Origin: Aureicoccus marinus | GTDB lineage: Bacteria > Bacteroidota > Bacteroidia > Flavobacteriales > Flavobacteriaceae | Assembly (NCBI RefSeq): GCF_002954325.1 | Contig: NZ_MQVX01000001.1 | Span: forward strand, 2,710,768-2,774,767 | DNA: 64,000 nt | Reading direction: 5' to 3' | Shown here: positions 3,299 to 50,029 of the stretch, piece after piece | How the letters are laid out: every line of letters begins with the position of its first letter | Position numbering within the stretch: position 1 is the stretch's first letter | Program-made: the position numbers and the translations under genes | Notes under the pieces: generated by a model | The model's input: the letters and a program-made list of their open reading frames with translations, nothing else | Database searches by the model: none | Told to the model about the DNA's origin: nothing

Positions 3299-4285
3299 TT
3301 AGTCAGCGACCATCAGGTTGCAGCCCCTTATTTCTGCATGGTCAAATCGACCCAGCACTTCAAAGCCATTGGTGTGCCATCGGCCTAAATCCTGAGTAGC
3401 GATAAAGCTGCAGGAATGTTGATTGGCTAGATCGATGACGTTGATCCCTCCACTTTTGCCTTCAGTTGCTAAGCTGAGAGGATCCTCGGCATCCCGAATG
3501 AGTATTTTTTTCCAGGGAGGACTATTGAATAGTCCATTGCCCAAGCTGTAGCTCTGAGAAAGCAGCTCAGTCATTCCGTATTCAGAGTGGATAGCCTCCA
3601 AATTGAACGCCTCCTGAAGTTCTCCATGCAGTTCTTTGCGGATCATTTCTTTTCGTCGGCCTTTCATCCCCCCGGTTTCCATGACCGTGACTCCGGAGAG
3701 GTCCGGATGGTACTGTTCGGCCAGGTCCAGTAGCGCATAAGAAACCCCCAATAAGAGCACTAGGGTTTCACTTGTTTGGGCTTGCTCAATGCGGTTTAAG
3801 AGTTCCTTGTAATCACTCAGAAAGAACCCGCCCAAGGGGTTTTGGGAAAGGTCCAACAACTGATCCACCATATAGACCAGAGACGAATGCTGCTGCTCCA
3901 GGTAATTCGGCAGGAGGGCAAGAATACAATGCTCTTTGGGGTCCCCGTAAAAGAGCTCAAATGCTTTGATAAAACTTTGTTGGTAGTACGGGGCTTGGGC
4001 AACGCGATGTATACTGCGCTGCTGCGCCGTGGTACCACTGCTGCGGAATTCAAGCTCGTAAGGGCCCGGGTGACTGCTTACCTCTCGGGATTTGAAAAAG
4101 TCAATCGGTAAAAAGGGAATATCGTTCAGGTCAAAAGCCAGATTCGGGTCAAAGCCCAAATGCACACAGTATTCGCGATAAACCGGATTGTTGTGGTATT
4201 GGAATGCAACGGTACGCCGTACAGCTGACCAAAAATCGGCCTCGGTTCGAATACCAAATACTTGGGAGGGAGATAGGGCTTCCAC
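3299..4285 (-). CDS. LuxE-like acyl-protein synthetase / acyltransferase
   Basis: A 328-residue protein of the LuxE / acyl-adenylate-forming group. Indicators are FLPIDFFKS near residue 55, the Ser/Thr/Gly-rich nucleotide-binding segment SSGTTAQQRS near residue 85, and the conserved ETGGMKGRR and YGMTELLSQ motifs, the latter resembling the adenylate-forming enzyme motif YGxTE. LuxE activates fatty acids as acyl-AMP and transfers them to a protein cysteine. No LuxC or LuxD partner is nearby, so the acyl acceptor is unknown and a role in light production is not implied. The start is GTG (4283-4285). The gene lies 35 bp downstream of a small secretion-tail protein on the same strand and converges with tyrS. 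Confidence 0.75.
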   Translation of the reverse strand: MEALSPSQVFGIRTEADFWSAVRRTVAFQYHNNPVYREYCVHLGFDPNLAFDLNDIPFLPIDFFKSREVSSHPGPYELEFRSSGTTAQQRSIHRVAQAPYYQQSFIKAFELFYGDPKEHCILALLPNYLEQQHSSLVYMVDQLLDLSQNPLGGFFLSDYKELLNRIEQAQTSETLVLLLGVSYALLDLAEQYHPDLSGVTVMETGGMKGRRKEMIRKELHGELQEAFNLEAIHSEYGMTELLSQSYSLGNGLFNSPPWKKILIRDAEDPLSLATEGKSGGINVIDLANQHSCSFIATQDLGRWHTNGFEVLGRFDHAEIRGCNLMVAD

Positions 4286-4320: not shown

Positions 4321-4644
4321 TTACTTCACAACCAGCTTGCGGGTCATGGTGGTGTCGTTTTCTTTGACTTGTAAAACGTACACTCCAGGAAGTAGTTTCG
4401 AAATGTTCAGGGTATGACCTTGCAGGTTTTCTGCCATCACCATCTCGCCAAAGACATCAAATACCTTCACTTCTTTCGTTCCAACGATAGACGTTCGAAT
4501 GGTCACCTGATTCCCGTAAGCGGGATTTGGATACATTTTAAAAGTCTTGGGTGAGGTCTTGATCGGGCGATCGGCACTTGCGATTTCTTGCCCATGGGTC
4601 AGTAGAGGTAAGGCCATAATAATAAGGAAGAATAATTTTCTCAT
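4321..4644 (-). CDS. Small exported protein consisting mainly of a type IX secretion tail
   Basis: A 107-residue protein. A signal peptide (about residues 1-18, ending ...LLTHGQ) is followed by a short linker and then a type A Por-secretion C-terminal domain (FKMYPNPAYGN, VFDVFGEMV, LLPGVYVLQVKEND, RKLVVK at the end). This domain normally targets a cargo to the type IX system for secretion and surface attachment. Here only about 15 residues remain between signal and tail, so there is no cargo domain. A similar gene lies just upstream. The product could be a secreted peptide, or a relic of a larger protein; the intact frame and conserved tail argue for expression. Confidence 0.8.
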   Translation of the reverse strand: MRKLFFLIIMALPLLTHGQEIASADRPIKTSPKTFKMYPNPAYGNQVTIRTSIVGTKEVKVFDVFGEMVMAENLQGHTLNISKLLPGVYVLQVKENDTTMTRKLVVK

Positions 4645-4769: not shown

Positions 4770-5111
4770 TTAGCGGATGATCAGCTTGCGCGTAGCCGTT
4801 TTGTTGTTCTCGAAGACACGCAAGATGTACACCCCTTTATCCAGACGGCTGAGGTTGAGCTCACGACCCACCAGTTTCTGTTGCATCACTTGGGTCCCGA
4901 AAACGTCAAAAATCAAGATGTTCTTGGGAGCGTTGTTTCGGGTTTCGATGGTGATTCTGCCGTCTGTCACGGGGTTAGGAAAGAGTTTGAAGTCTTGAAT
5001 CTCTTCCGTAGAAGCCTTCCCTCGACTGCTGTTCATGGCAATAGAGCTATTCTGCGCATAAGTCAGCGTAGAAAAACAAGCCAATAAAAGTACGAGGTAG
5101 AGTTTCTTCAT
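4770..5111 (-). CDS. Small exported protein consisting mainly of a type IX secretion tail
   Basis: A 113-residue paralogue of the protein encoded at 4321-4644. It has a signal peptide (cleavage probably after ...LTYAQ, about residue 20), a 20-residue polar linker, and the type A sorting domain (FKLFPNPVTDGRI, LIFDVFGTQV, LDKGVYILRVFENN, ending RKLIIR). The tail is recognisable by the PNP start, VFDxxG middle and GxYxLRV end. No enzymatic or adhesive domain is present. A TAnnTTTG promoter box lies about 30 bp upstream of the ATG, so it probably has its own transcript. Confidence 0.8.
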   Translation of the reverse strand: MKKLYLVLLLACFSTLTYAQNSSIAMNSSRGKASTEEIQDFKLFPNPVTDGRITIETRNNAPKNILIFDVFGTQVMQQKLVGRELNLSRLDKGVYILRVFENNKTATRKLIIR

Positions 5112-5147: not shown

Positions 5148-5242
5148 AATTTTTTTACGAATTGATTATAAGCTGGTTAGGGCTTTCGGGCGGTTTTTCG
5201 ATGAACCGCAAGGATTTGACCCAAATTTTAACAAAAAACAAA

Positions 5243-5266
5243 AACCCCGGCCAGATGACCGGGGTT
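5243..5266 (-). terminator. Rho-independent terminator after the beta-helix lipoprotein gene
   Basis: An 8-bp perfect stem (AACCCCGG / CCGGGGTT) with an 8-base loop. On the minus strand it is followed by a T-rich stretch. It sits 26 bp past the stop of the gene ending at 5292 and should end the receptor/beta-helix transcript. Confidence 0.85.
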
Positions 5267-5291: not shown

Positions 5292-8045
5292 TTAGTTCGT
5301 TGCCCAGCTGAATGTAGAGATGTCTACAGTAGCAGCTGCGTTGTATGCATTTTGTGGGTCAGCATCAGCTCCTTCGATCTGAATATTGGCGAAGGATCCC
5401 TGATCTGGGTTAGCCAATTCAACAGAAGTAGCGTATCCGCTCAAAGAAAGTCCAGTGATAGTAGCACCAGAAGCTTTTTTGAACTGAAGCGCTGTACCGT
5501 TTACAGAAGAAACAGCGGTAAAGTTGGCAAGGGTTGGGTTGCCATTTGCTCCATCCGCCTCAACAGCCGTGGAGAAAGCTACATCGTGAACAACATAGGT
5601 ATTGGTCAAAGTACCGTTCCATCCTTCTGTCCAGTCAACAGCATCATCTTCGTTGTTTTCTAGGTAGAAGTTAGAAGCAGAAACCGTTCCACCGAAGAAC
5701 TCCACACCATCGTCTGTTCCATTCAAGATAGCCACGTTATCGATAGTCGTACCAGAACCAACAGCGTAAAGAGAAAGACCGTTGAACTGAGACTCCGAGT
5801 TGATCTGAGCACCAGCGTAGTTGATGATCAAGTAATCGATGTTTCCAGAGCTGTCTTCTGCGTTGTCTCCTCCGTATTGGATTTGACCTACTTCAGCGAT
5901 TGCATTTACTCCTTCCGTGGTTGGAGCGTTTCCAGCGATCACCAATCCACCCCAGCTTCCAGGAGTTTGAGTTGTAGAAGTCAAAGTAACAGGGCTACTC
6001 GCTGTTCCTTGGATATCGATAGCAGCACCTTGCTGAACGACGATGTAGGTTGAAGTAGATTCACCAACAGTCAAATCAGCAGTGATGGTTGTACCCGCAG
6101 GGATCGTCAAAGTAGCTCCTGATTCAACACTGAAGGTATTGCTCAAGAAGTAAGCGATACTTGCGTCCAGGGTCAAGTCAGAAGAAAGAGATCCTGTCAA
6201 GATTTGAGTCTCAACTTCTGAACCATCTGCCCAGCTGAACATAGAAACATCCACAGTGGCATCAGCCAAGTAAGAGTTAGCAGGATTCGCGTCAGCTCCA
6301 TCGATTTGGATGTTGGCGAAAGATCCCTGATCCGGGTTAGCCAATTCAACAGAAGTTGCGTATCCAGTCAAAGACAAACCGGTGATGGTTGCACCAGAAG
6401 CTTTCTTGAATTGAAGTGCAGTACCACCGACAGTAGATACAGCCGTAAAGTTGGCAAGGGTTGGGTTGCCATTTGCTCCATCCGCCTCAACAGCAGTAGA
6501 GAAAGCACCAGTATGTAGAACATAAGCGTTGGTCAAAGTTCCATTCCAACCTTCTGTCCAGTCTACGGCATCATCTTCGTTGTTTTCTAGGTAGAAGTTG
6601 GAGGCAGAAACTGTTCCACCGAAGAACTCCACACCGTCATCTGTACCGTTCAAGATCGCAACGTTGTCGATCGTTGTTCCAGAACCAACCGCGTAGAGAG
6701 TCAAACCATTGAATTGAGACTCGGAGTTGATTTGAGCACCAGCGTAGTTGATGATCAGGTAATCGATATTACCAGAGCTATCGGCATCTTCCGTACCACC
6801 GTATTGAATTTGACCTACTTCAGCAATAGCATTCACTCCTTCTGTAGTGGTTGCATCTCCAGCGATAACCAATCCACCCCAGCTACCAGGAGCTTCTGTA
6901 GAAGAGGTCATCACAACAGGGTTACTTGCAGAACCCTGTACATCGATTTCAGCACCTTTCTGAATAACGATATAAGTAGAAGTAGACTCGCCAGTTTCCA
7001 ACTCGGCAACAATCCTTGTTCCTGCAGGAATAGTCAGTTTTGCTCCGGCTTCAACACTGTAGGTTCCATTAAGGAAGTAAGTAACTCCAGCGTTCAACGT
7101 ACGGTCAGAAGTCTGTGATCCACTCAAGATGTCCACAGATCCAGAATTCTCGCTCGCCCAGCTAAAGCCAGATCCGTCTTCTGAAGAAGAAGAGTAGCTT
7201 GCAGAAGGATCAGCAGAAGCACCATCGATGATGATGTTGTCAAAAGATCCTTGCTCTGGGTTAGCCAATTCAACATTGGTGTCATAGCCGGTCAAAGTAA
7301 GACCGTTAATCGTGGCTCCAGAAGCTTTCTTAAACTGAAGGGCTGTACCTCCAATTTTTGAAGAAGTTCCGGCAGAAATGGCAGTGAAGTTAGAAATAGT
7401 AGGGTTGCCATTAGCTCCATCCGCTTCGATAGCCGTTGAGAAGTCATTGATGGTGTGCAGAACATAAGTGTTAGCCAAGGTTCCGTTCCATCCTTCTGTC
7501 CAGTCTACCGAATCATCTTCGTTATTTTCTAAGTACAAATTCGTAGCAGAAACAGTTCCTCCAAAGAATTCAACACCATCGTCCGTTCCGTTCATGATGG
7601 CAACGTTGCTAATGGTTGTTCCAGAACCTACAGCATATAGGGTCAAACCATTGAACTGAGATTCAGAGTTGATTTGAGCACCAGCGTAGTTGATCACAAG
7701 GTAGTTGATGGAACCTGAGCTGTCTGTGTCTTCTGTTCCCCCGTAAGAGATGCCTCCAACTTCGGCAGTAGCGTTTACTCCCTCCGTAGTGGTAGCGTTT
7801 CCGGCAATCACAAGACCTCCCCAGTTTCCTGGAGTTTGTGCAGCTGAAGTCATGACAACAGGGTTGTTGGCAGTACCCTGAATGACAATATTCGCTCCTT
7901 GTTGAACCACAATATAAACGTTGGTTCCTGTGGCGGCGGTAATGGTGGTTCCTGCAGGGATGGTTAAGGTGACTCCTGCGGTAACACTCATGGTACCGTT
8001 TAATTGGTAATCTACATTCGGATCAAGAGTGGTGTCCTGATCGAT
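5292..8045 (-). repeat. Three tandem in-gene repeats of about 0.92 kb
   Basis: Repeat 1 spans about 7131-8045, repeat 2 about 6201-7130 and repeat 3 about 5292-6200. Repeats 2 and 3 are almost identical in protein over long stretches and very similar in DNA; repeat 1 is somewhat more diverged. This suggests a recent duplication and makes the array prone to recombination or assembly collapse. Confidence 0.88.
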
Positions 8046-8240
8046 AGAGCTTGGTAGAGCGTTGTTGACTGGGCAGGCGTTGGTACAAGTTCCGCCGCAG
8101 TCCACACCCTGCTCTCCAGGATCTTGAACTCCGTTGCTACACAAGTCAACGGGATCCCCGTCGTCCTGCTTACATCCAACAAAAAGTACACTCAGCGCGG
8201 TGAGAAGGACGGCAGAGGTCTTTAAAACATTCGATTTCAT
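5292..8240 (-). CDS. Large lipoprotein of three tandem beta-helix repeats
   Basis: A 982-residue lipoprotein with a signal peptide and lipobox LFVGC (Cys23). Residues 30-57 form a cysteine-rich segment with the pattern NGxxDxGExGxDCGGxC, found near the N-terminus of several Bacteroidota surface proteins. Three repeats of about 305 residues follow (about 66-370, 371-680, 681-982). Each contains TLTIPAGT, GSWGGLVIAG, NYAGAQINSESQFNGL, GTDDGVEFFGGTVSA and ENNEDDxVDWTEGWNGTL, consistent with a right-handed parallel beta-helix rich in Asp/Asn that could bind metal or glycan. The 49-bp gap to the upstream TonB-dependent receptor gene suggests one transcript, making this the likely surface partner of the receptor. 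The ligand is unknown. Confidence 0.85.
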   Translation of the reverse strand: MKSNVLKTSAVLLTALSVLFVGCKQDDGDPVDLCSNGVQDPGEQGVDCGGTCTNACPVNNALPSSIDQDTTLDPNVDYQLNGTMSVTAGVTLTIPAGTTITAATGTNVYIVVQQGANIVIQGTANNPVVMTSAAQTPGNWGGLVIAGNATTTEGVNATAEVGGISYGGTEDTDSSGSINYLVINYAGAQINSESQFNGLTLYAVGSGTTISNVAIMNGTDDGVEFFGGTVSATNLYLENNEDDSVDWTEGWNGTLANTYVLHTINDFSTAIEADGANGNPTISNFTAISAGTSSKIGGTALQFKKASGATINGLTLTGYDTNVELANPEQGSFDNIIIDGASADPSASYSSSSEDGSGFSWASENSGSVDILSGSQTSDRTLNAGVTYFLNGTYSVEAGAKLTIPAGTRIVAELETGESTSTYIVIQKGAEIDVQGSASNPVVMTSSTEAPGSWGGLVIAGDATTTEGVNAIAEVGQIQYGGTEDADSSGNIDYLIINYAGAQINSESQFNGLTLYAVGSGTTIDNVAILNGTDDGVEFFGGTVSASNFYLENNEDDAVDWTEGWNGTLTNAYVLHTGAFSTAVEADGANGNPTLANFTAVSTVGGTALQFKKASGATITGLSLTGYATSVELANPDQGSFANIQIDGADANPANSYLADATVDVSMFSWADGSEVETQILTGSLSSDLTLDASIAYFLSNTFSVESGATLTIPAGTTITADLTVGESTSTYIVVQQGAAIDIQGTASSPVTLTSTTQTPGSWGGLVIAGNAPTTEGVNAIAEVGQIQYGGDNAEDSSGNIDYLIINYAGAQINSESQFNGLSLYAVGSGTTIDNVAILNGTDDGVEFFGGTVSASNFYLENNEDDAVDWTEGWNGTLTNTYVVHDVAFSTAVEADGANGNPTLANFTAVSSVNGTALQFKKASGATITGLSLSGYATSVELANPDQGSFANIQIEGADADPQNAYNAAATVDISTFSWATN

Positions 8241-8289
8241 AAATAGTGGTTTAGATGAAAAAAAAGGAGGCTAAGTAAAAAACAGGTGA

Positions 8290-11217
8290 TTAAAAGTTGT
8301 AGTTGAAACCTAGGCTAATCGTTCTTCCCAAGTTGTAGGAACGAACGGTAACTTCTTCTTCTACGCGTTGAGCATTTAGACGTTGGTCAATTGGTAGAGG
8401 AGCGAGGTCCCGAATATTTCTTAGAATAAGTTGTGTTTGACGGATGTCTGGATTTAAGAGGTTTCGACCGGTAAGACGTACTTGCCAATGCTCTCCCAAA
8501 TCCTTGGTTACTGTCGCGTCGAGTACGACAAATCCTTTTTCAACGATCGCGTCATCGTAAAAGATGTCGCGGTTGATCTGATCGGTGGGAACACCCAATG
8601 CGAAGATCTTGTCAGATGCATAGTTGGCCGTTAGAGAAACTCCAAAAGGGTTTACTCCCGCAGTATTGAAGTTCAGGCTACTGTTGATGATGTAGTCAGG
8701 AGCACCCTGAAGATTGGTCTTGCTAATGGTCTTGTAGCGGAAGCTACGGATTAGTGCACCTGATTCCGTGCGCTGCTCAATGAGGTCCTGGTTGGTCCAC
8801 ATGCGTGTCGCATTGAACACCATACTCAGTTCGTTCCCTGTAGCTTCTCCTTCTTCATTCGTCGTGGCCTTAATCAGGTCCAATTTGGTTTCTAGTTCCA
8901 GACCAACCACCTCGGCTCTTTCTGAAGTGTTGAAGTAAGAGAACACACCAGCAGATCCTCTGTCACGAACACGGTTGATCGGGTCTTTGATGTCCTTGTA
9001 AAAAGCAGCAACAGAAATCAATTGTCCTGGAGTAGGGAACCATTCCCACTTCAAATCGTAGTTGAAATCAATTGAAGCTTCTACATCCGGGTTACCACGA
9101 GTGACCTGCCCTACGGGAGATACATATTCAAAGGGAGCAATTTCTTTGAACTCTGGCAGAGTAATGGTACGGCTAGCCGCAAAGCGGATAGCTTGTTGTT
9201 CGTTCAAGCTGTACTTGATGTTCAACGCCGGGTAGAAGTTGTTGTACTCCTGGTTGCTTTCGCCCACACGCAAGGCCAAGTTACCCACATCGTAGTTGAC
9301 GTTGATCTGGTCGCGTTGGTAGCGGAAGCCCGCATTGAAGTTCCACTTGTTGTTCAAGTTGATATTGAAATCAGCGAAAGCGGCCTGCGATTCCAGGCGC
9401 CCGGAATAGATATCTGCATTGTCACCGTTCGCATTAGCTCCTAGCACATTTAATTGCAACAGGCCATTACTGAAGTTGGAAGCTGTAAAAATGGATCCCA
9501 AATCGTCCAAGCTGCTTGCCGTTACGGTATTGAAGTTACGCTCTTCAACTCCGACAAACTCCGAGTAAAAGTCTCTTTCTTTATTTCGGTAGGCTGCTCC
9601 AACCTCAATTTTGAAGGCGGTTTCTTCCTTGTCGATCAGGTTGATTACATCCTTGATGTAACCATTGTATTCGATATCTTCAATTTGCTGAGCAGATTTT
9701 CTTTGCTGAAAACCACCGGTGAATCCTAGCTGAATACTCTCAGCGCCCGGGTTGGTAGGATCAAAAACTTCTCCTGGAGCAAGGTCTTCTGGCTCGCGAG
9801 GGTTGAAGTTCACCTCGTTGCGAATACGGTTAGGCTCGTCCGCGTACAACAGGTTGTATCCAACGGCCCATTCCAGGTTGTGTTTATCATTCAGTTTGTG
9901 GGTACCGGCCAATTGGGTAACCAAAAGCTGGGTACGCTTCACGTTTTGGTCGCGGATAAACTGAGAGATCGAATCGTTGTTCAGATCGTCTTCTTCAAAA
10001 ATGGTCGAGTTTCCGGCGCGTCCTCCTTCAAATACGTTTTCGGCGTATTTGTTAATGAAGAAGGTGGTGGATTTCAACTTGTTTTTATCGTTGATAAACC
10101 AAGTCAAATCAGCTAAGGCTGAGTTGACAATTTCAGAAGTGTAGTTGGTTGCATCGGTAATCGTGTCTTCCAAAGCATTTCCTCTGAACTGACGGAATAC
10201 ACCTTGTTGGTAACCGTTAGAACGACCATGAGAAGCGGTAACCAAAACCGCTAATTTATTGTCGAAGAATTTCTTTCCTGCAGCGATAGAAGCGGTATAG
10301 TTTACCGGATTATCCAGGGTTTGGGTATTCCAACCCTGACTGATGACTTGCTCGCGAATGGAGCGCGGACGCAAGTAAAAGCCCAAGGTGGCATCGTTGA
10401 TATTGGGTGAAATACGGAAGTTGTCAAATACCCCTTCTTGGCTAACGTTTGTATTTACTCCAGAAGAAAGACTAACCTGTAAAAGGTTATCTCCTTGCAG
10501 TTCACGAGAAGAAACATTGATCACGCCGGACGCCTGATCCGCTGAGTTAAGAGCGGAGTAGGTCTTACTCACACTAACATTTTGGATTACCCTAGTTGGG
10601 AAGAGATTCAGGCTGATGTTTTTGCGTTCTACATCATCAGAAGGAACAGGAAGTCCGTTCAAAGTAGTCGACAGGTAGCGGTCTCCAAGCCCACGGACAA
10701 AGATGTCTCCCGAACCTTGACTTGCCGTAACCCCAGAGATTTTAGTGGTGGCTTTGGCTGCATCCGAAACGGCCAATTTACCGAGTTCTTGTGCCCCAAT
10801 ACTTTCAACAACGGTGACGGCTTTCTTTTGAGAAATCAATTGAGCGACTTGAGAATCCTGTCGACGAACGACGGTTACAACGACCTCTTCTAGTTGTTCG
10901 GCCGACGCACTCATGCTCACATTGACTTCAGAAATTTTACCGGCTTCCACAACAACATCGACCACTTCACGGGTTTCGTAACCAACGTAGCTGAAGACAA
11001 CGGTATAGGTGCCTGGCTCAAGTCCAGAGATTTCATACAAACCATCAAAGTCAGAAGTGGTCCCTTGAGTAGTCCCTTTAATTAGGACGTTGGCGAAGGC
11101 CAGGGGTTCATCATTAAAGTCAGCGTCAGTCATCTTTCCGGCAATGCTTCCGGTGGATTCCTGTGCAATAGCCAGGGAGGAAATGATAAAGGCTAGAGCG
11201 GTTATAAGTGTTCTCAT
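8290..11217 (-). CDS. TonB-dependent receptor with N-terminal carboxypeptidase-like domain
   Basis: A 975-residue outer-membrane receptor. A signal peptide (1-18) is followed by a carboxypeptidase-regulatory-like beta domain (about 20-105, GSIAGKMTD ... FANVLIKGTTQGT ... SYVGYETREV), a plug domain (about 120-245, with FVRGLGDRYLSTTLNG), and a 22-strand-type barrel ending in an aromatic residue (LGFNYNF). Such receptors import scarce ligands using TonB energy. It is not of the SusC subclass, and its partner is a beta-helix lipoprotein rather than SusD. The divergent two-component system and the phased repeats upstream suggest PhoB-like control, so phosphate or a phosphorylated compound is a reasonable guess for the ligand, not a proven one. 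Confidence 0.9.
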   Translation of the reverse strand: MRTLITALAFIISSLAIAQESTGSIAGKMTDADFNDEPLAFANVLIKGTTQGTTSDFDGLYEISGLEPGTYTVVFSYVGYETREVVDVVVEAGKISEVNVSMSASAEQLEEVVVTVVRRQDSQVAQLISQKKAVTVVESIGAQELGKLAVSDAAKATTKISGVTASQGSGDIFVRGLGDRYLSTTLNGLPVPSDDVERKNISLNLFPTRVIQNVSVSKTYSALNSADQASGVINVSSRELQGDNLLQVSLSSGVNTNVSQEGVFDNFRISPNINDATLGFYLRPRSIREQVISQGWNTQTLDNPVNYTASIAAGKKFFDNKLAVLVTASHGRSNGYQQGVFRQFRGNALEDTITDATNYTSEIVNSALADLTWFINDKNKLKSTTFFINKYAENVFEGGRAGNSTIFEEDDLNNDSISQFIRDQNVKRTQLLVTQLAGTHKLNDKHNLEWAVGYNLLYADEPNRIRNEVNFNPREPEDLAPGEVFDPTNPGAESIQLGFTGGFQQRKSAQQIEDIEYNGYIKDVINLIDKEETAFKIEVGAAYRNKERDFYSEFVGVEERNFNTVTASSLDDLGSIFTASNFSNGLLQLNVLGANANGDNADIYSGRLESQAAFADFNINLNNKWNFNAGFRYQRDQINVNYDVGNLALRVGESNQEYNNFYPALNIKYSLNEQQAIRFAASRTITLPEFKEIAPFEYVSPVGQVTRGNPDVEASIDFNYDLKWEWFPTPGQLISVAAFYKDIKDPINRVRDRGSAGVFSYFNTSERAEVVGLELETKLDLIKATTNEEGEATGNELSMVFNATRMWTNQDLIEQRTESGALIRSFRYKTISKTNLQGAPDYIINSSLNFNTAGVNPFGVSLTANYASDKIFALGVPTDQINRDIFYDDAIVEKGFVVLDATVTKDLGEHWQVRLTGRNLLNPDIRQTQLILRNIRDLAPLPIDQRLNAQRVEEEVTVRSYNLGRTISLGFNYNF

Positions 11218-11270: not shown

Positions 11271-11340
11271 GTTACTCTCATGTTAAGAGTGGATTTTATC
11301 AGGGTTACCTTAGTGTTAGAAGATTAAATCAACGTTAAGG
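11271..11340. promoter_or_regulatory. Phased GTTA direct repeats: probable response-regulator operator
   Basis: GTTA motifs begin at 11271, 11282, 11304 and 11315. The spacing is 11 bp between the first two, 22 bp across a degenerate unit (ATTTTATCAGG at 11293), then 11 bp again. Another GTTAAGG lies at 11334, off phase. OmpR/PhoB-family regulators bind direct repeats spaced one helical turn apart. The array lies between the TonB receptor gene and the response-regulator gene, just upstream of the latter's -7 box. Confidence 0.6.
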
Positions 11341-11367: not shown

Positions 11368-11411
11368 CTTTTATGGCAGCAGGCCCTCGGGCTTGTAAAC
11401 GATTATACGTC

Positions 11412-12098
11412 ATGAATAAAAAGGACATTAAGATCCTACTGGTCGACGATGAACCAGATATCTTGGAAATTGTGAGCTACAACCTTTCGTCCGAAGGGTA
11501 CCAGGTCTATACCGCTAAAAACGGAGTAGAGGGGGTAGCCAAAGCCAAAAAGAAGCAACCTCATTTGATCATCCTCGATGTGATGATGCCCGAAATGGAC
11601 GGGATTGAAGCCTGCGAAATGATGCGCGCTACGCCTGGGCTAGAAAACACCATCATTACTTTCTTGACCGCTCGTGGAGAAGACTATTCCCAGTTAGCCG
11701 GATTCGATGCCGGAGCCGATGATTATATTACCAAACCCATTAAACCCAAGGTTTTAGTAGGGAAGGTAAAGGCCCTTTTACGTCGCCTCAAGGAAGACAA
11801 AAACGAAGTGGAAGACATCGTTGAGGTGGGCGATATCATTATCAACCGGGAAGAGTACAAGATTGTCAATAAGGGGGTCGAAATCATTCTTCCCCGCAAA
11901 GAGTTTGAGTTGTTGGCCCTGCTTACTTCCAAGCCCAGTAAAGTGTTCAAACGAGAAGTGATTTTGGACAAGGTATGGGGCAACGAGGTTGTTGTCGGAG
12001 GTCGTACCATCGACGTTCACATCCGGAAGCTCCGTGAAAAAATTGGCGATCACCACTTCAAAACCGTCAAGGGCGTCGGGTATAAGTTCGTGCTCTAA
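11412..12098 (+). CDS. OmpR/PhoB-family response regulator
   Basis: A 228-residue DNA-binding response regulator. The receiver domain (residues 6-120) has the acidic pair Asp12/Asp13, phosphoacceptor Asp56 (ILDVMMPEMDG), the switch Thr in FLTAR and Lys108 in ITKPIKP. The C-terminal winged helix (about 135-226) ends with the typical VDVHIRKLREK-like segment (TIDVHIRKLREKIG) and the TVKGVGYKF wing. I chose the ATG at 11412 because the receiver begins three residues later; an in-frame start 39 bp upstream adds a poorly conserved leader. Its stop overlaps the kinase start (TAATG). Likely target sites are the phased GTTA repeats upstream, which would mean autoregulation plus control of the divergent receptor. 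Confidence 0.93.
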   Translation: MNKKDIKILLVDDEPDILEIVSYNLSSEGYQVYTAKNGVEGVAKAKKKQPHLIILDVMMPEMDGIEACEMMRATPGLENTIITFLTARGEDYSQLAGFDAGADDYITKPIKPKVLVGKVKALLRRLKEDKNEVEDIVEVGDIIINREEYKIVNKGVEIILPRKEFELLALLTSKPSKVFKREVILDKVWGNEVVVGGRTIDVHIRKLREKIGDHHFKTVKGVGYKFVL

Positions 12099-13156: not shown

Positions 13157-14192
13157 TCCAACTGAACTTGCAGCCCAGTAAAGCCTTTATAGTGTGCTAC
13201 TCTTTCTAATTCTTTTAGGCTAAAACTATCTTGACTGCAGTACGGAATAAGTTGTTGGTCCTCCAGACGCTCGGCTAAGTACACCTGTTCGTATTGACCA
13301 GGAGTAGGAATAAAAAAGGCTTTTTGCCTAATTTAGCCAAATCCATCACCGTTGTGTAACCGGAACGAGAAATAATCAGCTCGCTGGAATTCAGAGCCTT
13401 CTCCAGTTCTTCCGATTGCATAAAGTTCACCAGTTCTATACTTCCGCGAGGGGTTGTTATAACCTTCTTCGTCTTCTCATCTTCAATTTTCCCTCGTACA
13501 AATAAGACGTGCCCTTCAAACGCATGGAGTTCTACCATTAGTTTCTCTTCAAGGAAGGTTCGTTGTGGTTCGGGGCCAGAGAGCAAGACCATGAGAGGGT
13601 ATTTTTTGGGCAGATCCCTTTTTTCGAAACGACTCAGCGGACCGGTATACCGTATCGAAAATCGTGGATTTTTTAGATGACCCAATCGACCTGTTAAGTT
13701 CGGTTCACGATCAAAATCAGGTACCCAACACTCTTTAAACCGGCGAATTACTTCTTGATGAAAAGTGGAACTTATCCAGGTAGTGCTACCCGAAAGCACA
13801 TTCAATTGATGCGAGATAAAGACCGAGGGAACCTTTCTGCTCAACGCCCCCATACGGTTATCTGAAATGAGACCGTCGATTTCTTCCTGAACAATCAGCT
13901 TCTCGATCGCAAGTCGTTCTTTGGCCATGGCCGCGAGCAGTTTAGGTGAATCAAAGATCATCTTGAGTTTAAAGAACTGTCCTTTAGATGCGTACTTCAC
14001 ATTGTAGGAGGGGAGCTCAAAAGCAGGTAGTTCAGGGAATTCGTGTTTGAGTAAGCGGAGGGCAACTCCGTCGGAAGCCAAGTAAACAAGGACACCTCTT
14101 TGGATAAGGGCATGGATAAGAGGAATACAGCGCGTAGCGTGCCCTAATCCCCAATTTAAGGGAGCAACGAGTATTTTTTTCCCTTTTAACAC
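13081..14192 (-). CDS. MurG-like glycosyltransferase (reading frame broken at about 13312-13317)
   Basis: A GT-B-fold glycosyltransferase of about 370 residues once the frame is restored. The N-terminus has the nucleotide-sugar transferase motif NWGLGHATRCIPL, as in MurG and UDP-glucuronosyltransferase-like enzymes. The C-terminal half has LIISRSGYTTVMDLA, the donor-binding region. The frame breaks in the six-base run at 13312-13317. Adding one T on the coding strand joins KKPFF to IPTPGQYEQVYLAERL, and IPxPGQxEQ is the conserved donor-site segment, so the second piece clearly belongs to this gene. The start is GTG at 14192. The substrate is unknown. The 3' end overlaps the histidine kinase gene on the other strand. 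Confidence 0.85.
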
Positions 14193-27536: not shown

Positions 27537-30500
27537 ATGAAGTTTCTTCTCAGAATCCTACCTCTTCTGTTGCTTAGCGCCTGCGCTACTCAGAAGACCA
27601 AATACGCCAGTCAGTCGAACTGGAAGGCCGAAACTAACGCTACTCAAAGCGCCAAAAGCTCACCTCTGCTGCACCGGATGTACCTGGTAGGAGATGCGGG
27701 TTTAACCAAAGAAGGCCGCGATATGAATGCGGTTTTGGAGAGTTTGAAAGAGCACCTCGCAACGGACGCGGAGGCGGGGAGTGTTTTTTATCTGGGTGAT
27801 AATATTTACCCAGCCGGAATGCCTAAAAAAGCAAAAAAGAGTTACAAAGATGCCAAACACCAGCTAGACGCTCAACTCCTGGCCGTTCAGGATTTCAAGG
27901 GCAAGGTGGTGTTTATACCCGGGAACCACGACTGGTACAGCAACGGTTTGAAGGGCCTAAAAAGACAAGAGGACTATCTCGAGAAAAAGCGCAAGCAGAA
28001 AGAGATTTTTGCCCCTGAAAATGGCTGTCCACTCGAAAAAATAAAGCTGAACGATCAGGTGATTGTTTTGGCCATCGACACCCAATGGTACATCACCAAT
28101 TGGAATAACCACCCGGGGATAAATGACGATTGTGATATCAAGAGTCGCGAAGCCTTTTTGGAAGAGGTCGAAAGCCAAATCAAAAAGAACCGTGACAAAA
28201 CGGTAATTCTCGCCTTGCACCATCCGCTGATGACCTACGGCTCTCATGGGGGCTACTTTTCTGCCGGACAGCACCTCTTTCCGGTAGGGGGTATTCCTTT
28301 GCCAGGACTGGGTTCTTTCTTGCAATTGCTGCGCCGCAGCAGTGGGGCATCCAATGCCGATATGTCTCATCCGCGCTACTGGGAGTTGCGAAAGCGCCTT
28401 CTAACCCTGGCCCAGTACTCCGAACGGGTGGTTTTGGTATCTGGTCACGAGCATACCCTTCAGTACAATAAAGAGGCCAATACGCCTCAAATAGTAAGTG
28501 GCTCTGGAGCCAAAAAGGGCTTTACGGTTATGCGCAAAGGAAGCCTCTTTTCCACAGGGAAAAGGGGCTACGCACGCTTATCCATATACGCCAATGGGCA
28601 GACCGAAGTGGAGTTCTTTACTGTAGCGGATAATACCGCCAGAGAAAAGGTGTACCAAACCCAGGTACTGAAGGCCTTTAAACCACTTTTGAATTCCCGC
28701 TTTACCCAAACCAATTTTCCTTCCACTCAAAAAGCTTCTGTCTACAGTGCAGAGGAAGTCGATAAGAGTGGATTTCACCGAGGGATGTGGGGTGAACGCT
28801 ACCGCAAGTATTACGGAGTCGAGGTCGAAGCTCCGGTCGCTTTACTCGATACACTTTACGGTGGTTTAACTCCAGTCAGAAAAGGAGGAGGACACCAATC
28901 CAAATCCCTCCGATTGCAGCATGCAGACGGGCGTCAATTCGTTTTGCGTGCCTTGCGCAAAAGCGCAGAGCTTTACTTGCAAGCCATTGCTTTTAAAGAC
29001 CAGTACATTGTCGGAGACTTTGAGGGTACGGTGACCGAAGGAATCATTCAGGATTTTTATACCGGTTCTCACCCTTATGCACCTTTTACGGTAGCACCAC
29101 TGGCCAAAAAGCTGGGAATCAACCACACTAATCCGAAGTTAGTCTATGTTCCAAAACACGCGGCTCTGGGAGGATTTGTCGAGGATTTTGGAGATGAGCT
29201 TTACATGATCGAGGAACACGTGTCCGGTGGTCACACCAGCTCTTCTTTTGGAGATGCCAAGGAGATATTAAGTTCGGATGACCTGATCTTAAAACTCCGC
29301 AAAGACGAAGATTTTCAACTGGACCGAAAAGCTTACATAAGGGCCCGTCTTTTCGATATGGTATTAGGAGATTGGGATAGGCACCCGGACCAGTGGCGAT
29401 GGGCCGAATACAAGAATCCAAAGGGCGGCAAAATCTATAAACCAATTCCGCGTGATCGCGACCAGGCCTTTTCTCGAATGGGGAATGGCTGGTTGGTTGG
29501 TTGGGCCACGCGTGTGGTTCCTTCTCTGCGCTTGTTTGAAGGCTTTGAGGAAGAAATACGCAATGTTCGAGGCCTGAACTCTTCCCCCAAGACCTTTGCG
29601 TTGGATATTTCTCTACTCAGTGGAACCTCCTGGGAGGATTGGGAGGAGCAAGCCCGTTTTATTCAGGAACAACTGGATGCCAAGACCATCGCTCAAGGGT
29701 GGGAAAACCTTCCAGTTGAGGTGAGGGACCAAACCCAACAAGAGTGGCAGGCCTATTTGGTCAACCGCATAGGGCAGCTGCAGTCCACTGCCCGAGAGTA
29801 CTACGCGGTTCTTCATCGCTTTGGGGTGGTTCGAGGTACCGACAAAGACGATTTCTTCCGAATCAGTACGCAAGGAGATCACTTATTGGTTGAAGGTTAC
29901 CGCATCAAAAAAGAAGGCAACGAGCTCTTTTTTAGTAATCGCTTTGACCCTAAACTGACCAAAGAAGTGTGGGTTTATGCTTTGGACGATGAGGATCGTT
30001 TTGAAGTACTTTCGAACCCTACCTCTATCAAGCTGCGGTTGATTGGTGGTCAGGGTAAAGACGATTATGCTGTGGCCAAGAGAGCCCGTGGGGTTCATAT
30101 TTACGATCAAAAATCGAAAAAGAACAACTACAAAAAAGTGGCTTCTGGACGGGTACACAAAACAGACCGCTACTTGTTAAACACCTACCGTCCTGATTTG
30201 GTGAAGGACAATGGTTTTCAGTTACTTCCCTTACTCGGATTTAATCCGGATGAAGGCATGCTGGTTGGAATCAATACAGCGATTATTCGCAGTGGTTTCA
30301 ACAAGCCCTATAGGGCTAAACACCGGTTGAGTGCAGGGTATTATTGGGCCAATAATGGTTTTGATTTGCAGTATAAAGGACACTTTACCCGGGTCTTTGG
30401 CTCAGCAGGCCTCGAATTAGAAGGCCGCTTTACAAGCCCCAATTACAGTAGAAACTTTTTTGGGTTTGGAAACGAAACTCCCAATAATGACGAAGAACTT

Positions 30501-31246
30501 GATCTGGATTTTAACCGGGTCCGTACCCGAATTTTACAAGGAGAGGCGCGCCTACTCTGGCAGGGTGATTTGGGATCGAGAACCTGGTTGGGAGCCGGAG
30601 TCCATTCCTACCAGATTGAAGCCAGCCCGGACCGATTTATCGGTGACTTTTTACAAGCCAACCCCTTGTCTAGAACCCAGTCCTTTGTCAAGTTTTCAGC
30701 AGGCTATCACGTTGCCAATCTGGACAACGCAGCCTTCCCTTCTCGAGGAATGGTCTTTGGCTTAGCAGGGGCCTACTACCAGAACATCGAAGGTGACGGG
30801 GGTAACTTCGCCAGCATCCTACCAGAGATTACCTTCTATCAGTCTCTGCTTGGCCAGGGTCAGGTGGTGTTGGCGACTAAACTCCAAGGGCAGCAAAACA
30901 TAGGGGATGACTACCTCTTTTATCAATCGGCCCAACTTGGAGGACGAACCGGATTGAGGGGCTTCCGATTTGAGCGTTTTAGTGGGAAATCGTCTTTCTC
31001 GCACAGTTCAGATGTGCGTTGGATTTGGGGGAAACGCCGTACGGGTTTACTTCCAATACGTCCGGGGATTTTCGCCGGTGTCGATTATGCCGAGTCTGGG
31101 TCCCAGGAGATGATTCCAGACGTTGGCATAATTCTTACGGTGGCGGATTTTTTATAGAAGGAGCCGAGATGCTTACCGCTCAGTTGAGCGTATTTAACAG
31201 CACGGATGGAGCCCGTTTTGTTTTCGGCTTCCAGCTGGGTCTCTAG
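27537..31246 (+). CDS. Metallophosphoesterase / kinase-like / outer-membrane barrel protein (frame broken at about 31089)
   Basis: A giant envelope protein of about 1236 residues after frame repair. A lipobox LLSAC lies at residues 11-15. Residues 48-360 are a calcineurin-type phosphoesterase: GDAG (Asp53), GDN (87-89), GNHD (129-132), HH (228-229) and GHEH (303-306). Residues about 460-700 resemble a kinase-like fold: FVLRALRK (Lys475), MIEEHVSG, GDWDRHPDQ (611-619) and RDRDQAF (639-645). From about 880 the sequence is a BamA/surface-antigen-like barrel (LPLLGFNPDEGMLVG ... TGLRGFRFERFSGKS). One G is missing near 31089; adding it gives DYGRVWVPGDDSRRWHNSYGG and a proper C-terminal strand ending FVFGFQLGL. 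The substrate is unknown. Confidence 0.82.
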
Positions 31247-34433: not shown

Positions 34434-37400
34434 TTACGGTTGTTTATTGTTGTCGATTTTATAGACTTCAGCCGCGGCGTTATTAAAGACGGCTAAAATA
34501 TAGGATGCTCCGTTTTTCTCTAAACGACGCAAATGGCGCAGGCTTTTTTGTTGCCAGTCCAAACCTAGGGAGCTCCCGAGCTGGTAGTTACCTGGAGCCT
34601 TCCACAGGGCGCCCGGGAAGGAATCGAAACGGCCTTGGTAAGGCTTAACTCCAAAGTAGTTTCCTCCCATCAGCACTTCGTATTGCTGGTCTCCGTCAAA
34701 GTCGTAAACCAACATGTCCATAATCGGAGACAACTGCATTGGCCAGTCAAAAGGAACAAACTCGTAGCGGCCATTGTTATTCTTCAGTATTCCACTGCGT
34801 AATTCGTCCACTTCCCATATAGTGGCCTTTTTCAAGGCTTCTTTTCCGAGTATATCAGAAATGGACTGACCGGCAAAGGCGGTATAAGAGGTGTATTTTT
34901 TACGCAAAGAAACCATCTGACTACCCAAATCGTCCAAGCCTGTTATCGGATAGTATTTTCCGTCCTTGCTGATTCCGGTGATCGCCTCGGTTTGCCCATT
35001 GTCATCAAAGTCTGCCGTAAACAGTTTTAGGGGCTCTTCTTCAGAGGCCTTGAATTTGGTGTTGGTTCCCCAGTTACCCAGCAAGAAATCTTCGTCCCCA
35101 TCTTGGTCAAAATCCAAAACCGCAACACTTTGCCAAAGACCCCTTGGGCCGTCAAAATCTTCTTCTTCTTTTAATTTGTTACCGTCCCAGACGTACTTTT
35201 TGGGAGCCATCCATTCCCCAACAACAACGATACCTGCGGGCTTGTCATTTCTGTCTCTGCCCAAGTCAACGGCAGCAGTAGGCATGCCGTCAAAGCTGAA
35301 TCGTTGGGCGATGGAGAAGCGACCTCCGTTATTGAGAAGGAGGTAGGATTCAGCAGGGAGTCCAAAGCGCCCTGTATTGGTCTGATTACCGACCCAAAGA
35401 TCTACATCTCCGTCATCGTCAATATCTGCGCTCAGCAGTACCGAGGTATTGGAGAAGTAGTCAGCGAGCTCACTCTTGGTAAAGGTAGAATCGCTTTGTT
35501 GGTAGTAGCTGTCTTTCAGAGCAGGGGCCTTTCCGAAGAAGTCTGCTCCCCCTGAGCCGGCAATGATATCCACTTGCCCATTGGCATCGAAATCCTCGGC
35601 AACCAGACTTACCCATTCCTGAATGGAATCTGCAGCGAGGGCAGCAGGTACTTCGGCGGCAGAAAAGGCCGAGTCGTTCTCCATAAAGAGTTGGGGAGGA
35701 AAGAATTTAGACCCTCCAAAGAGTATGTCCTTTTTCCCGTCCTGATTAAAGTCAGCCTGTACCAGGGCCGGTCCGCGATCGGAAACACTGTAAGGGATGA
35801 GCTTTTCGCGGTTAAAGTGGGAATAATTGTCTTCTTTATGCGTAAACGCAATACCGAGCTGGTCCCCCTGCAGTTGAAATAGGGGCGCTTTAGTCGGTTT
35901 TGCCGAAGGAAGCTTCCCAGTAGGATTGTAACGAACCACCAGGTGTTGTCCTGCTTTTTGGGCCCGAAGCTTTTGAAGATCTCCCCCGGGCCAGACAATT
36001 TGGACGGAGTCCACTTGCGTGGCTTCTCCTAATCCAAAGAAGAGGCGAGGTTCGGATGAGGCCTGGAACCCTCGGTTAGGGAAGAGCTCTCTGTAGTGGG
36101 CTTTCCCGTTGATATAGGCCGTAACCTGGGCGCCAATACCCCATTGATTCATCCCTGTTCCTTGGAGCTGCAGGGCCAAAAAGTTTCCTTTTTTCTTTCC
36201 GGTATTGATGTAAAGACTCGCCGCTTCGTTCAAGTTGTTGGTCACCAGGTCCAAATCTCCGTCGCGATCCAGATCGGCCCAGGCAGCAGAGTTTGAAACT
36301 TTGGCGCCTTTAGGCAGCCAATCGGAAGAGCGGTCTGCAAATTGAAAGGCCTCCTGCCCTTCGAAGACATAATTTTCGACATAACCATCCGGCATTAAGT
36401 CCAGGGCTTCCTGATCGATGATGCGGGTGTTGTCAATTTTATTTTTGATCTGATCATTCGAAACGAAACGAATAAAATCCAGGTCATTCGGACGCTGAGG
36501 AATCCCGTTCGAAATAAAGAGATCCTGTTTGCCGTCCAGGTTGTAGTCGGCAAAAAGGGCACCCCAACTCCAGTCGGTAGCGGCAACACCGCTGCTCAGG
36601 GCGGTTTCCAAAAACCCGCCTTTTTCCTGATTGACAAAAAGCATGTTCCGGGTGAATTGGTAGTGGTAACCAAATTGCTCGATTCGCATGCGCTGGGTCT
36701 GAATGTTATCGTCTCCTTCCGTGCTCTTCAATGCTTTTTCAGATTCCGGCAACATGTCTAACGAAATCAAATCCGGCCGGCCATCGTAGTTGAGGTCGGC
36801 CGCGTCATTCCCCATCGAAAACCGACTGCTGTGTCCAAAATAATCCCGCAGTGATTCTGTAAATGTACCGTCTCCGTTGTTGATATAGAAGTAATCGTCT
36901 TCATGGAAGTCGTTCCCCACGTAGAGATCGGGGTACCCGTCCTTGTTGAAATCCGAAACCGTTAAACCCAGGCCATAGGCATTGATTCCGCCGTAGATAC
37001 CCGCCTCTTCGCTAATGTCCGTAAAACGGCCATCGTCATTGCGCAAGAGTTTGTCCCCTGTTTCGTAAATTCTTTCTTCTCTTAAATCAACCCGACCAAA
37101 GGACTCTTGGGTGTGAACAGCATGGTTCAGCAAGTAGAGGTCGAGATCTCCGTCCAGGTCAAAATCAAAGAAGGCAGCAGAACTGCTGTAGGAGTCATGG
37201 TCCAGGCCATAACGGGCAGACTCTTCTTTAAATGTTCCGTCTTTTTGGTTGATGTAGAGTTCATTGTGACCTCGAAAGCCTTGAATACCAACAACGGCAC
37301 AGACATAAATGTCAAGCCAGCCGTCCCCGTTCACATCAGCCATCACGCTTCCGGTATTCCAGCTGCTTTTGCCTTCCACTCCTGCAGTTTCGCTCACATT

Positions 37401-37702
37401 TTCGAACTCCAAATCCCCTTTGTTCAGGTAGAGTTGATTGGGCCCCTGGTTGGCGGTGAAGAAAATATCGGGAAGGCTGTCGTTGTTGATGTCTCCGATG
37501 GCCACTCCGCCCCCGTTGTAGTAGTATAGATAATCTAGGATGCTGATGTCCTGATCGGGAAGGAGGTTATTGCTAAAGTCCACCCCACTTTTCGCAGGAG
37601 ACCGCAATTCAAAGAGTTGATCTCCTCGAGAACATTGGGCAAAAAGCAGAGCGAGAAAAAGAATCCCCCTACAAAGGAGAATATGGTCTTATTGAAGCGC
37701 AT
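34434..37702 (-). CDS. ASPIC/UnbV-VCBS repeat lipoprotein, third of three (frame broken at about 37665-37669)
   Basis: About 1089 residues after frame repair. The long open frame starts inside the protein. The true N-terminus lies in another frame: from the ATG at 37702, one extra G in the five-base run at 37665-37669 gives a signal peptide with lipobox LLFAQC joined to FELRSPAKSGVDFSN. The N-terminal half carries FG-GAP/VCBS calcium-binding repeats (DINNDSLPD, DVNGDGWLD, DFDLDGDLD, DFNKDGYPD). An ASPIC/UnbV domain lies near the middle (LFPNRGFQASSEPRLFFGLGE ... VDSVQIVWPGG), followed by more FG-GAP repeats. Such proteins probably form surface beta-propellers that bind polymers. The corrected start overlaps the upstream paralogue by 14 bp. 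Confidence 0.86.
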
Positions 37703-40700
37703 AAACTCGAGGTGCATTATCGTTAATCGCCGCTATAAAATAGGCTTGACCGTTTTTGTCTTGGAAACGTGCCAGATGCTTGACTTCTTCTTTGATAAAC
37801 AAACCGCTTTCTGCATAGTTTTGCCAGCTGAATTGCCCTGTCCCATCTCCGAGAAGAACGTGTCCGTAGCTTGCGTCAAGTCGAGAGAATTGGGGCTTAA
37901 ACTCGTAGTTATTCCCCGCCATGATTAGGTCGGTGTTCCCATCTCCATTGACATCAGCGCACTGAATCCCGCATACACAGGACAACTGCACTGGGGAAGG
38001 TAATTCCTGAATGCGGAAGTTTCCGTTCCCTTCGTTAAAGGCAATCAATGAGGCCGAGTACTTGGCTGTCTTGACAATCGCTTGCTCCATCACCTGAGGC
38101 GCGAAAAGCTCTTGTACCGTTCGGCCAGCGTAGTCAGAGGCCTTGAGGTTCTCTTTCTTCAAAGAAACCAGCTGTCCGGTCAATTCTCTTTTTTGGTGGA
38201 TAGGGAAGTCCTTTCCGTCTCGAGAGATGGCTGTGATTTGCTCAATGGTTCCGTTGTTATCAAAATCGTGGATGTAGAGCTTCATCGGTCTTTCGGGAAC
38301 CGCAGGGTAGTGCAGGTTCTTTCCTTGGTTACCCAAAACCAAATCCAGGTCTCCATCGCCATCGAGGTCACTGGCCTCGACCGAGTTCCACCATCCGCTC
38401 AAGTCGTCAAGCGTACCAGGCACCCTAGAGAGTCGGCGAGTGTTGTTTTTAAACCAGATTGGAGTTCCCCATTCGGATACGGTGACCAAATCCGCGATTT
38501 CGTCTCCATCCATATCGGCCCAGACAGCGCTGGTGATCATTCCAGCATCTTTCAAGTCAAAGGCTAAGCGTTCCGTACTGTTTCTGAATTCTCCATTTCC
38601 GGTATTTTCCAGGAAGAGGTGATCCGGGTTTACCCCATAGGTGCCAGCGACAGAACGGGAACCGATAAAGACATCCATGTCTCCATCCTGGTCAAAGTCG
38701 TAAGGTGCTACAACCGACATGTTCTTGAAGGTGCTGGGCAATGCTTTTTCAGAAAGCTCCAGGCGTCCCTTCCCGTTGTTTAAATACAGGCGGGGGCGGT
38801 AACGTCTGAACTGATCCGCTTGGTTTCCTCCACTGGCGACCAACAAATCGAGATCTCCATCTTGGTCGGCGTCAAAGGCCGCGGCTGCGGTGTCCTCGTA
38901 ATTTCTATCCTTGTCCAGAGCGGGCTGAACACTGGGCTGTAAACGGCCTCTTCCCTGGTGAAAATAGACCTGTCCCGGTTGATCCATTGCTCCCCCGACA
39001 AAGACGTCTTCGTGCCCGTCTCCGTTAAAGTCTCCGGTCGCCAACGCCGGGCCTTCCTGCGAGAGTTTTTGGTAGATAAGGCCTTCGTAATCGAAGTCGC
39101 TGTAGTTGTTTTCTTTATGTGAAATCAGCTTTTGGTCGACTTGTGCCAAAAGGGTTTGTGCTTTTGCGGGAGCCGGGATAACATAGGAAGCCAGGTCGGC
39201 ATTGTACTCCAACTGCAGCAACTGATTGGCCTTTACATCGGTCAAGAGTTGTGTTTTTTGGTCAGGCCAGATGACACGAATGGAATCCAGTTGAGCCACC
39301 TTGCCCAATCCCTGGTGTAAACGGTAATCCATGGAAGACTGGAATCCTCTCGATGGAATCAATTCTTGTCGTACCTCTTGCTCATCGAAATAGAAGACCA
39401 CTGTACTGCCCAAGGCATAGGGGTTTTTATCTACTCCTTTTAGCGCGACCTGGATGGAGTTGTTGCCCAGCTTTTCGGTTTTGTTCTCGTAGACGTAGGC
39501 TTCTGTATTGACATTGTTGATCACCAGGTCCAGATCTCCATCGTTGTCTAAATCTCCATAAGCGGCTCCATTCGACATGGTCGGCATCTCAAAGCCCCAT
39601 TTTTCGTTCGCATTTTCAAAGGTGATATCCCCCTTGTTGCGGTAGGCGTAGTTCGGCTGAGGCTTGATCGGCATTTTAGCAATAATAGAATCGATGGACT
39701 CCTTGCGGCCAGTCAAAGCCATTTTTTGGATGATTTCATTTGCGAAGAAGTCCACAAAATCGAGGTCGGTAAGATCGTGGTTGATCCCGTTGGTGATAAA
39801 AATATCATTCAAACCATCGTTGTCCATATCAAAAATCAGCCCAGCCCAGCTCCAGTCGGTGGCTTCGACACCACTGAAATAAGCCACCTCAGAAAAACTG
39901 CCGTTACCGTTGTTCAGTTGGAGGGTGTTCTGAATGTACTGCTGAGAGAAGTCCTTACTTTGCTTGAGTTTAAAGACGTTATAGCCTTCAAACTCCATAA
40001 CCGACTTGACCCTTTTTTCTTCCTCCGGCAACATATCGGTTATAAAAATGTCGTTTTGCCCATCGTTGTTGATGTCGGCAATATCGATTCCCATGGCCGA
40101 AAGACTCAGGTGGGAGGTGTAGTTTTTGATTTCTTCAGAAAAGGTCCCGTCTTTTTGGTTGATGTAGAGGTAGTCCCTTTCGTAAAAGTCATTGGAAACG
40201 TAGATGTCCGGATAAAGATCGTGGTTGATGTCGGTTACAAGAACCCCTAAACCAAAGCCAATCAAACTACCGTAGATCCCGGCATCCTCGCTCACATCGG
40301 TAAAGACACCGTCGTCGTTGCGCAGAAGCATATCCCCAACGCCTTTAAAAATATGAGGAACTCCTTCCCAGTCCTGAGCGCGCACCTCGCGTTGCTCTGC
40401 GTAACCCAAGCTACTTACCGGGATATTACTGTTGTTAAGGATGTAGGCGTCCAAGTCTCCATCGAGATCGTAATCAAAGAAACTGGCGTGGGTGGAGAAA
40501 CCTGTTTTGGCCAGGTTGTATTGCTCCGCCATCTCTTTAAAGGTTCCATCTCCTTGATTGATATAGAGATCATTGTCGTGGTTGTTTCCTTCCAGGTTTC
40601 CGGCGTTGCTGACATAGATGTCTAACCAGCCATCGGCATTGATATCGGCCATCACCACTCCAGTCGACCAAGGTTTATTACCGGCCACTCCTGCCTTTTC

Positions 40701-44308: not shown

Positions 44309-44478
44309 TCTGTTCTTCCGCGGGCGAAATATAAGGATTCTCGAGGGATCGGACTTTTGATTTTGCAAAACTTTTTAGGCTGTTTATCCTGCAATAATGA
44401 TTTTAAACAAGAAGAGGAAAAGCGGGCATTGAAAAATCAAAAAAAGCCTAAATTGCGATTCAACCAATTAATGAATTT

Positions 44479-46152: not shown

Positions 46153-46173
46153 TGAACGAATAAATTGAAATAA

Positions 46174-46200
46174 AAAACCCGGCCTTTCGAGCCGGGTTTT
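46174..46200. terminator. Bidirectional terminator between the symporter and GH97 genes
   Basis: A 10-bp stem (AAAACCCGGC / GCCGGGTTTT) with a 7-base loop. It is followed by T residues on the plus strand and by a T run on the minus strand. It sits between the convergent stops at 46152 and 46210 and can serve both genes. Confidence 0.88.
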
Positions 46201-46209
46201 TCTTTGGGA

Positions 46210-48333: not shown

Positions 48334-48360
48334 TATCGAATAGGATTTGGTCTAAAATAA

Positions 48361-48386
48361 AAAAACCGCTCCAACAGGAGCGGTTT
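48361..48386 (-). terminator. Terminator after susD
   Basis: A 10-bp stem (AAACCGCTCC / GGAGCGGTTT) with an AACA loop. On the minus strand it is followed by a T-rich tract. It lies 22 bp beyond the susD stop and 28 bp before the GH97 start, so GH97 transcription depends on read-through or on its own promoter. Confidence 0.85.
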
Positions 48387-48408
48387 CTTGTATGAGTAAA
48401 CTCTAGGA

Positions 48409-50013: not shown

Positions 50014-50029
50014 TAGTTCAATTTTTTAA

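Follow-up and report, generated by a model that had tools for sequence, protein, structure and literature searches.

The window, a stretch of 64,000 nucleotides of the Aureicoccus marinus genome, contains a gene for a TonB-dependent receptor (TBDT) followed by a gene for a large lipoprotein. The features of this locus are as follows:

5231..5264, minus strand: terminator-like hairpin (CCCCGG..CCGGGG plus a T run), read from the sequence
5292..8240, minus strand: lipoprotein of the ElpS/FII family, 982 aa, an intact ORF, with three parallel beta-helix units of ~305 aa
8241..8289, minus strand: 49-bp gap between the receptor and lipoprotein genes, for which one transcription unit is expected
8290..11217, minus strand: TonB-dependent receptor, 975 aa, an intact ORF assigned by Pfam barrel and plug domains, AlphaFold and PDB comparison
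11271..11337, minus strand: Pho-box-like array of three 11-bp TAA(C/T) direct-repeat pairs
11373..12098, plus strand: PhoB-like response regulator, transcribed divergently to the receptor gene, best model PhoB TIGR02154
12098..13156, plus strand: PhoR-like sensor histidine kinase
13275..14192, minus strand: glycosyltransferase (GT; PF04101), the same kind of neighbour as Fjoh_0541

Pfam searches recognize CarboxypepD_reg, Plug (PF07715) and TonB barrel (PF00593) domains in the receptor, which scores 66.9 bits against the SusC/RagA model TIGR04056, far below the cut-off of 368. Its AlphaFold model (pLDDT 80.6) matches BtuB/FhuA-type transporters in the PDB (Z 25-28), with an alignment to BtuB over 535 residues (Z 28.5). 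This is a non-SusC receptor, kin to the Fjoh_0545-type and Caulobacter Cc0171-type receptors. The hairpin beyond the lipoprotein gene resembles an intrinsic terminator and probably closes the receptor-lipoprotein unit. Farther downstream, on the same minus strand, lie genes for two ~110-aa proteins (4321-4644 and 4770-5111) that amount to hardly more than a signal peptide and a T9SS type A sorting domain; many relatives likewise carry one or two of these genes after the lipoprotein gene, beside homologs of the ORF 3299-4285 and TyrRS.

The gene limits given in the preliminary description proved exact, and its three ~305-residue beta-helix repeats were confirmed. Unit alignment places the boundaries at residues ~63-366, 372-675 and 681-982, with 73-83% identity among the units in protein and 70-78% in DNA, and AlphaFold, run on an alignment of 38 relatives, predicts three all-beta domains (mean pLDDT 88.4). 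Single units align with parallel beta-helix proteins (Z about 18-21), mostly across stretches of 230-265 residues and at 6-17% identity; Foldseek and VIA returned such general beta-helix matches and no clear nearest structural family, and searches of Pfam, NCBIfam and the PDB sequences yielded no match to the lipoprotein. The SusD domains PF07980 and PF14322 were not found on it with the same Pfam library that detects a true SusD at 48409-50013 in the window; together with the failure of the receptor to pass the SusC model, this supports the earlier view of a non-SusD partner. Judged by eye, the N-terminus carries the lipobox LFVG-C followed by the acidic CKQDDGD, and relatives have CSxDD-type starts; the acidic residues after the Cys suggest that the lipoprotein would be exposed on the surface or released. 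The N-terminal cysteine cluster (C..NGVQDPGEQGVDCGGTC..AC), also pointed out previously, is present but belongs to a Maribacter-like group and is missing from most relatives. Elsewhere in this genome, an unrelated lipoprotein (L002:1486-1677) has the signal peptide in common with it and likewise carries a Cys-rich linker (TCTDGIQNGDETGVDCGGSSCAPC), so the cluster is a clade-specific, modular linker, and we set it aside as a functional site.

A scan of bacterial genomes yielded 80 related loci, in 79 of which the lipoprotein gene is immediately preceded by a receptor homolog on the same strand, usually 30-70 bp away; in the 80th, the contig starts inside the lipoprotein. The receptor also accompanies 19 of 20 one-unit lipoproteins (upstream in 14, downstream in 5, none in 1), and a same-strand receptor is present at 26 of the 29 phylum-wide loci, for which only 1.5-kb flanks were used. 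Strong co-occurrence in other genomes thus bears out the proposal, for which this check had been suggested, that the receptor and the surface lipoprotein form a pair. The pair is further present in 6/6 plasmid-borne relatives from alpha- and gammaproteobacteria and other Bacteroidota. Within the family, 107 of 120 genomes carry a lipoprotein homolog, as do 130 of 198 genomes drawn from the whole phylum; the listed members of one Bacteroidota family with small genomes of 2.1-2.8 Mb (group f16) all lack it. A few homologs (L166/L195, L185 and L198) have no recognized receptor nearby, and 18 TAAC arrays of the kind described below sit directly before a lipoprotein gene; taken together, these cases suggest that the lipoprotein may act without the receptor.

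Most of the lipoproteins at the 80 loci consist of two units, and 13 consist of three. On the receptor tree, changes between two and three units require 2 events, compared to a mean of about 12 in shuffles, and the three-unit form appears in two separate clades; thus, the third unit was gained twice independently, and the number of units follows the lineage of the receptor. Such a pattern fits a linked pair but also simple vertical inheritance. Forms with a single unit are common, so the basic function does not require three. A 7-residue insertion at residues 593-599 of the receptor, found in 8/13 three-unit pairs versus 0/65 two-unit pairs, was considered as an interface signal and dropped because it tracks one clade and is absent from the second three-unit clade.

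A similar arrangement is known from Flavobacterium johnsoniae, where PUSIV comprises, in this order, a GT (Fjoh_0541), OprP (0542), PhoR (0543), PhoB (0544), a Tbdt (0545) and FII (0546) (PMC8115612). Both loci show the order GT-PhoR-PhoB-TBDT-pectin-lyase-fold lipoprotein, and the gene in the place of our response regulator is called PhoB in F. johnsoniae; unlike PUSIV, the window lacks an OprP gene separating the GT from the sensor, and its lipoprotein has three units. The identity with FII was judged from gene order and fold only. Nutrient-limitation proteomics for F. johnsoniae has already been published (PMC8115612): upon Pi depletion, Fjoh_0545 and Fjoh_0546 change by 8.0 and 9.9 log2 units, respectively, and they are induced by depletion of Pi but not of N or Fe. 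Fjoh_0541 is Pi-induced as well and has been filed under lipid remodelling.

FI, FII and FIII are related to ElpS of Caulobacter (PMC8115612). In Caulobacter crescentus, ElpS (CC0170) and CC0171 likewise constitute a lipoprotein-TBDT pair under phosphate/PhoB control (PMC2996285), and elpS is expressed in a manner that requires both phosphate starvation and PhoB. Unlike in the usual Bacteroidota loci, with the order receptor-lipoprotein and no type II secretion (T2SS) genes, the order there is lipoprotein-receptor beside the T2SS. The two types are linked, by unit homology and receptor orthology, through relatives in Sphingomonas, Indioceanicola and Alteromonas. Plasmids of the former two carry lipoprotein-receptor-T2SS genes, and the order in Alteromonas is phoB-phoR-PstS-oxygenase-lipoprotein-receptor; the partner receptors of Sphingomonas and Alteromonas match only the receptor 8290-11217 in the A. 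marinus genome. The T2SS-linked alphaproteobacterial lipoproteins are matched by the unit HMM and tblastn (82-91 bits; E 6e-13 and 1e-22) and carry the same DDGxEFFGG / DD..D / ExD signature. Induction of relatives by phosphate starvation through PhoB has been reported (PMC8115612, PMC5172544), and pairs of this type have been described before as induced by Pi starvation (PMC8115612; PMC2996285). The pair in the window belongs to this known phosphate-starvation system, widespread in Bacteroidota and Proteobacteria.

The intergenic region of the window fits this regulation. The array pairs lie at 11337-11323, 11318-11304 and 11285-11271, and upstream of 78 receptor genes, TAAC spacings of 11, 22, 33 and 44 bp occur in 108, 38, 84 and 65 pairs, respectively, compared to about 1 in shuffles. 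The two-pair TAAC pattern occurs twice in the 3.05-Mb genome and not at all in the reversed control; the second array is located ~80 bp before a gene for a plcP-like PF12850 metallophosphoesterase (L089:520-1419, minus strand; G000:C1:823866-824762). In F. johnsoniae, plcP is one of the Pi-induced genes of lipid remodelling, and the repeat precedes plcP homologs in 18 of 30 genomes, compared to 3.5% of random stretches. Across 60 genomes, 47 of 130 arrays are followed by a lipoprotein homolog at a distance of no more than 6 kb, where 0.085% would be expected. Judging from the sequence, PhoB may bind this array, which is a usable candidate for the Pho box of Flavobacteriaceae. The core TTTAACA from DAP-seq of R. 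anatipestifer PhoP resembles the array, but this is a likeness of motif only and was set aside.

By our count from the locus table, the response regulator is divergently upstream in 39 of the 80 loci. Although it matches TIGR02154 with E 2e-62, it stays below the cut-off, and its scores against the two curated PhoB models, its top-scoring families, are 210 and 205 bits versus cut-offs of 296 and 270 bits, respectively. In the A. marinus genome, for which completeness is estimated at 87% although one contig makes up nearly all of it, we found a PIT-type phosphate transporter but no PhoU, no PstS over the cut-off and no PhoX.

The explanation that we favour, and consider probable, is that the pair is a PhoB-controlled outer-membrane phosphorus-acquisition unit of the ElpS/FII kind in a triple-unit form. 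Under phosphate starvation, the PhoR/PhoB-like pair would activate the divergent promoter via the 11-bp direct repeats, a step suggested by the motif, its position and the induction reported for the locus in F. johnsoniae. The lipoprotein, presumably directed to the cell surface by the acidic signal after its Cys, would capture a phosphorus-containing ligand, probably via a ladder of conserved carboxylates with bound metal ions, and pass it to the receptor beneath for TonB-energized import; the tandem units might raise capacity or avidity. Capture, hand-over and import are proposed by analogy to BtuB/BtuG and SusC/SusD. Our model for how the pair may work is BtuB of Bacteroides thetaiotaomicron, a TBDT capped by the non-SusD surface lipoprotein BtuG (PMC10404256), which, unlike what we propose here, binds B12, and we claim no homology between the lids. 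SusC/SusD and PusC/PusD also combine a TBDT with a surface lipoprotein, and PusCD is Pi-induced too, but the partner in the window is non-SusD and the receptor non-SusC. The capture-import reading is weakened by reports from Caulobacter that elpS deletion left phosphatase activity as it was, that cell phosphate did not change and that cc0171 is expressed constitutively, and by the scores of the response regulator below the curated PhoB cut-offs.

The Asp-rich loops of the preliminary description are real and conserved. Among 181 units from multi-unit lipoproteins, 20 from one-unit forms and 9 from proteobacteria, D173, D220, D221, E224, D242, D243, D246, E272 and D274 are kept throughout. In the model, E224, D246 and E272/D274 occupy equivalent strands (223-226, 243-249 and 269-276) in successive coils, with K/R304 after the next, and the strand register suggests that the conserved acids form one surface. 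Such a site might also belong to a surface hydrolase or lyase, either a pectin-lyase-fold enzyme or a metal-dependent phosphoesterase, which would free phosphorus compounds from polymers or cell walls for import by the receptor, a reading that we consider possible but rather doubtful. The invariant acids D220/D221/E224, D242/D243/D246 and E272/D274, with a K/R at 304 after them, sit on matching strands of successive coils, at the place of the active site in GH28 enzymes, and polygalacturonases, PL6 lyases and alginate epimerases have this same fold; FI and FII have been modelled on polygalacturonase (Lidbury et al.). However, the resemblance to GH28 and PL6 consists of the common fold and a partial acid pattern, with no Pfam or other family-level enzyme match, and this fold is common to many non-enzymes including NosD. 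Moreover, no His or Arg is conserved in the unit core across the phyla compared, and neither refolded nor immunoprecipitated ElpS showed phosphatase activity. Given structural matches that are general to beta-helices and of low identity, we make no enzyme assignment.

The Caulobacter data have led to the proposal that ElpS activates phosphatases; accordingly worded for the window, the lipoprotein would be a phosphatase activator or scaffold, on the surface or in the medium, and the receptor merely co-regulated. Overexpression of elpS raised the phosphatase activity of the supernatant, ElpS is released by proteolysis, and orphan copies of the lipoprotein exist, but the almost constant presence of one receptor subfamily next to it in two phyla and the tracking of the receptor tree by unit number make this explanation unlikely. 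Phosphatases induced by Pi stress, such as PhoX, are metal enzymes, and the pair could supply them with Ca, Fe or Zn instead of importing a phosphorus compound. The acid-rich conserved site would suit metals and the receptor fold resembles that of metal-chelate and B12 transporters; nevertheless, the response of the F. johnsoniae genes to Pi rather than Fe depletion and the lack of a PhoX match in the A. marinus genome render a metal supply quite improbable. Finally, although glycans are often bound by beta-helix folds, an ordinary SusCD-like carbohydrate-uptake pair with an unusual lid is highly improbable given the phosphate-linked regulation and the absence of adjoining glycan enzymes, and SusCD membership is rejected on the domain evidence.

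To return to phosphorus acquisition by the pair, the coexistence of PhoB/PhoR-like genes and the pair with the missing PhoU, PstS and PhoX would fit a stand-in for Pst uptake. A speculative extension, which we consider rather doubtful, is that the pair represents a phylum-spanning class of importers of the lid type, whose beta-helix, lined with carboxylates, captures the phosphorus compound through metal ions and hands it to the TonB receptor, replacing high-affinity Pst uptake. In the literature searched, which includes few subscription papers, no paper names a ligand of ElpS or FII. The conserved acid site offers a target for mutagenesis, and the comparison indicates genomes that may depend on the pair without Pst or PhoU. 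As far as this literature goes, the variation in unit number, the promoter array with its second target and the cross-phylum acid signature are new, as is the link at the receptor level between the ElpS/CC0171 and PUSIV FII/TBDT literatures, which ties two separately studied pairs by receptor as well as by lipoprotein.

Two other regions of the window were noted. The ORF at 27537-31157 (plus strand) encodes 1206 aa with a metallophosphoesterase domain near the start and no other Pfam match. The region 34434-53173 (minus strand), which encodes three tandem ~1100-aa FG-GAP/UnbV-ASPIC proteins, with a GH97 enzyme and a true SusD/TBDT pair next to them, has the look of a polysaccharide-utilisation locus.
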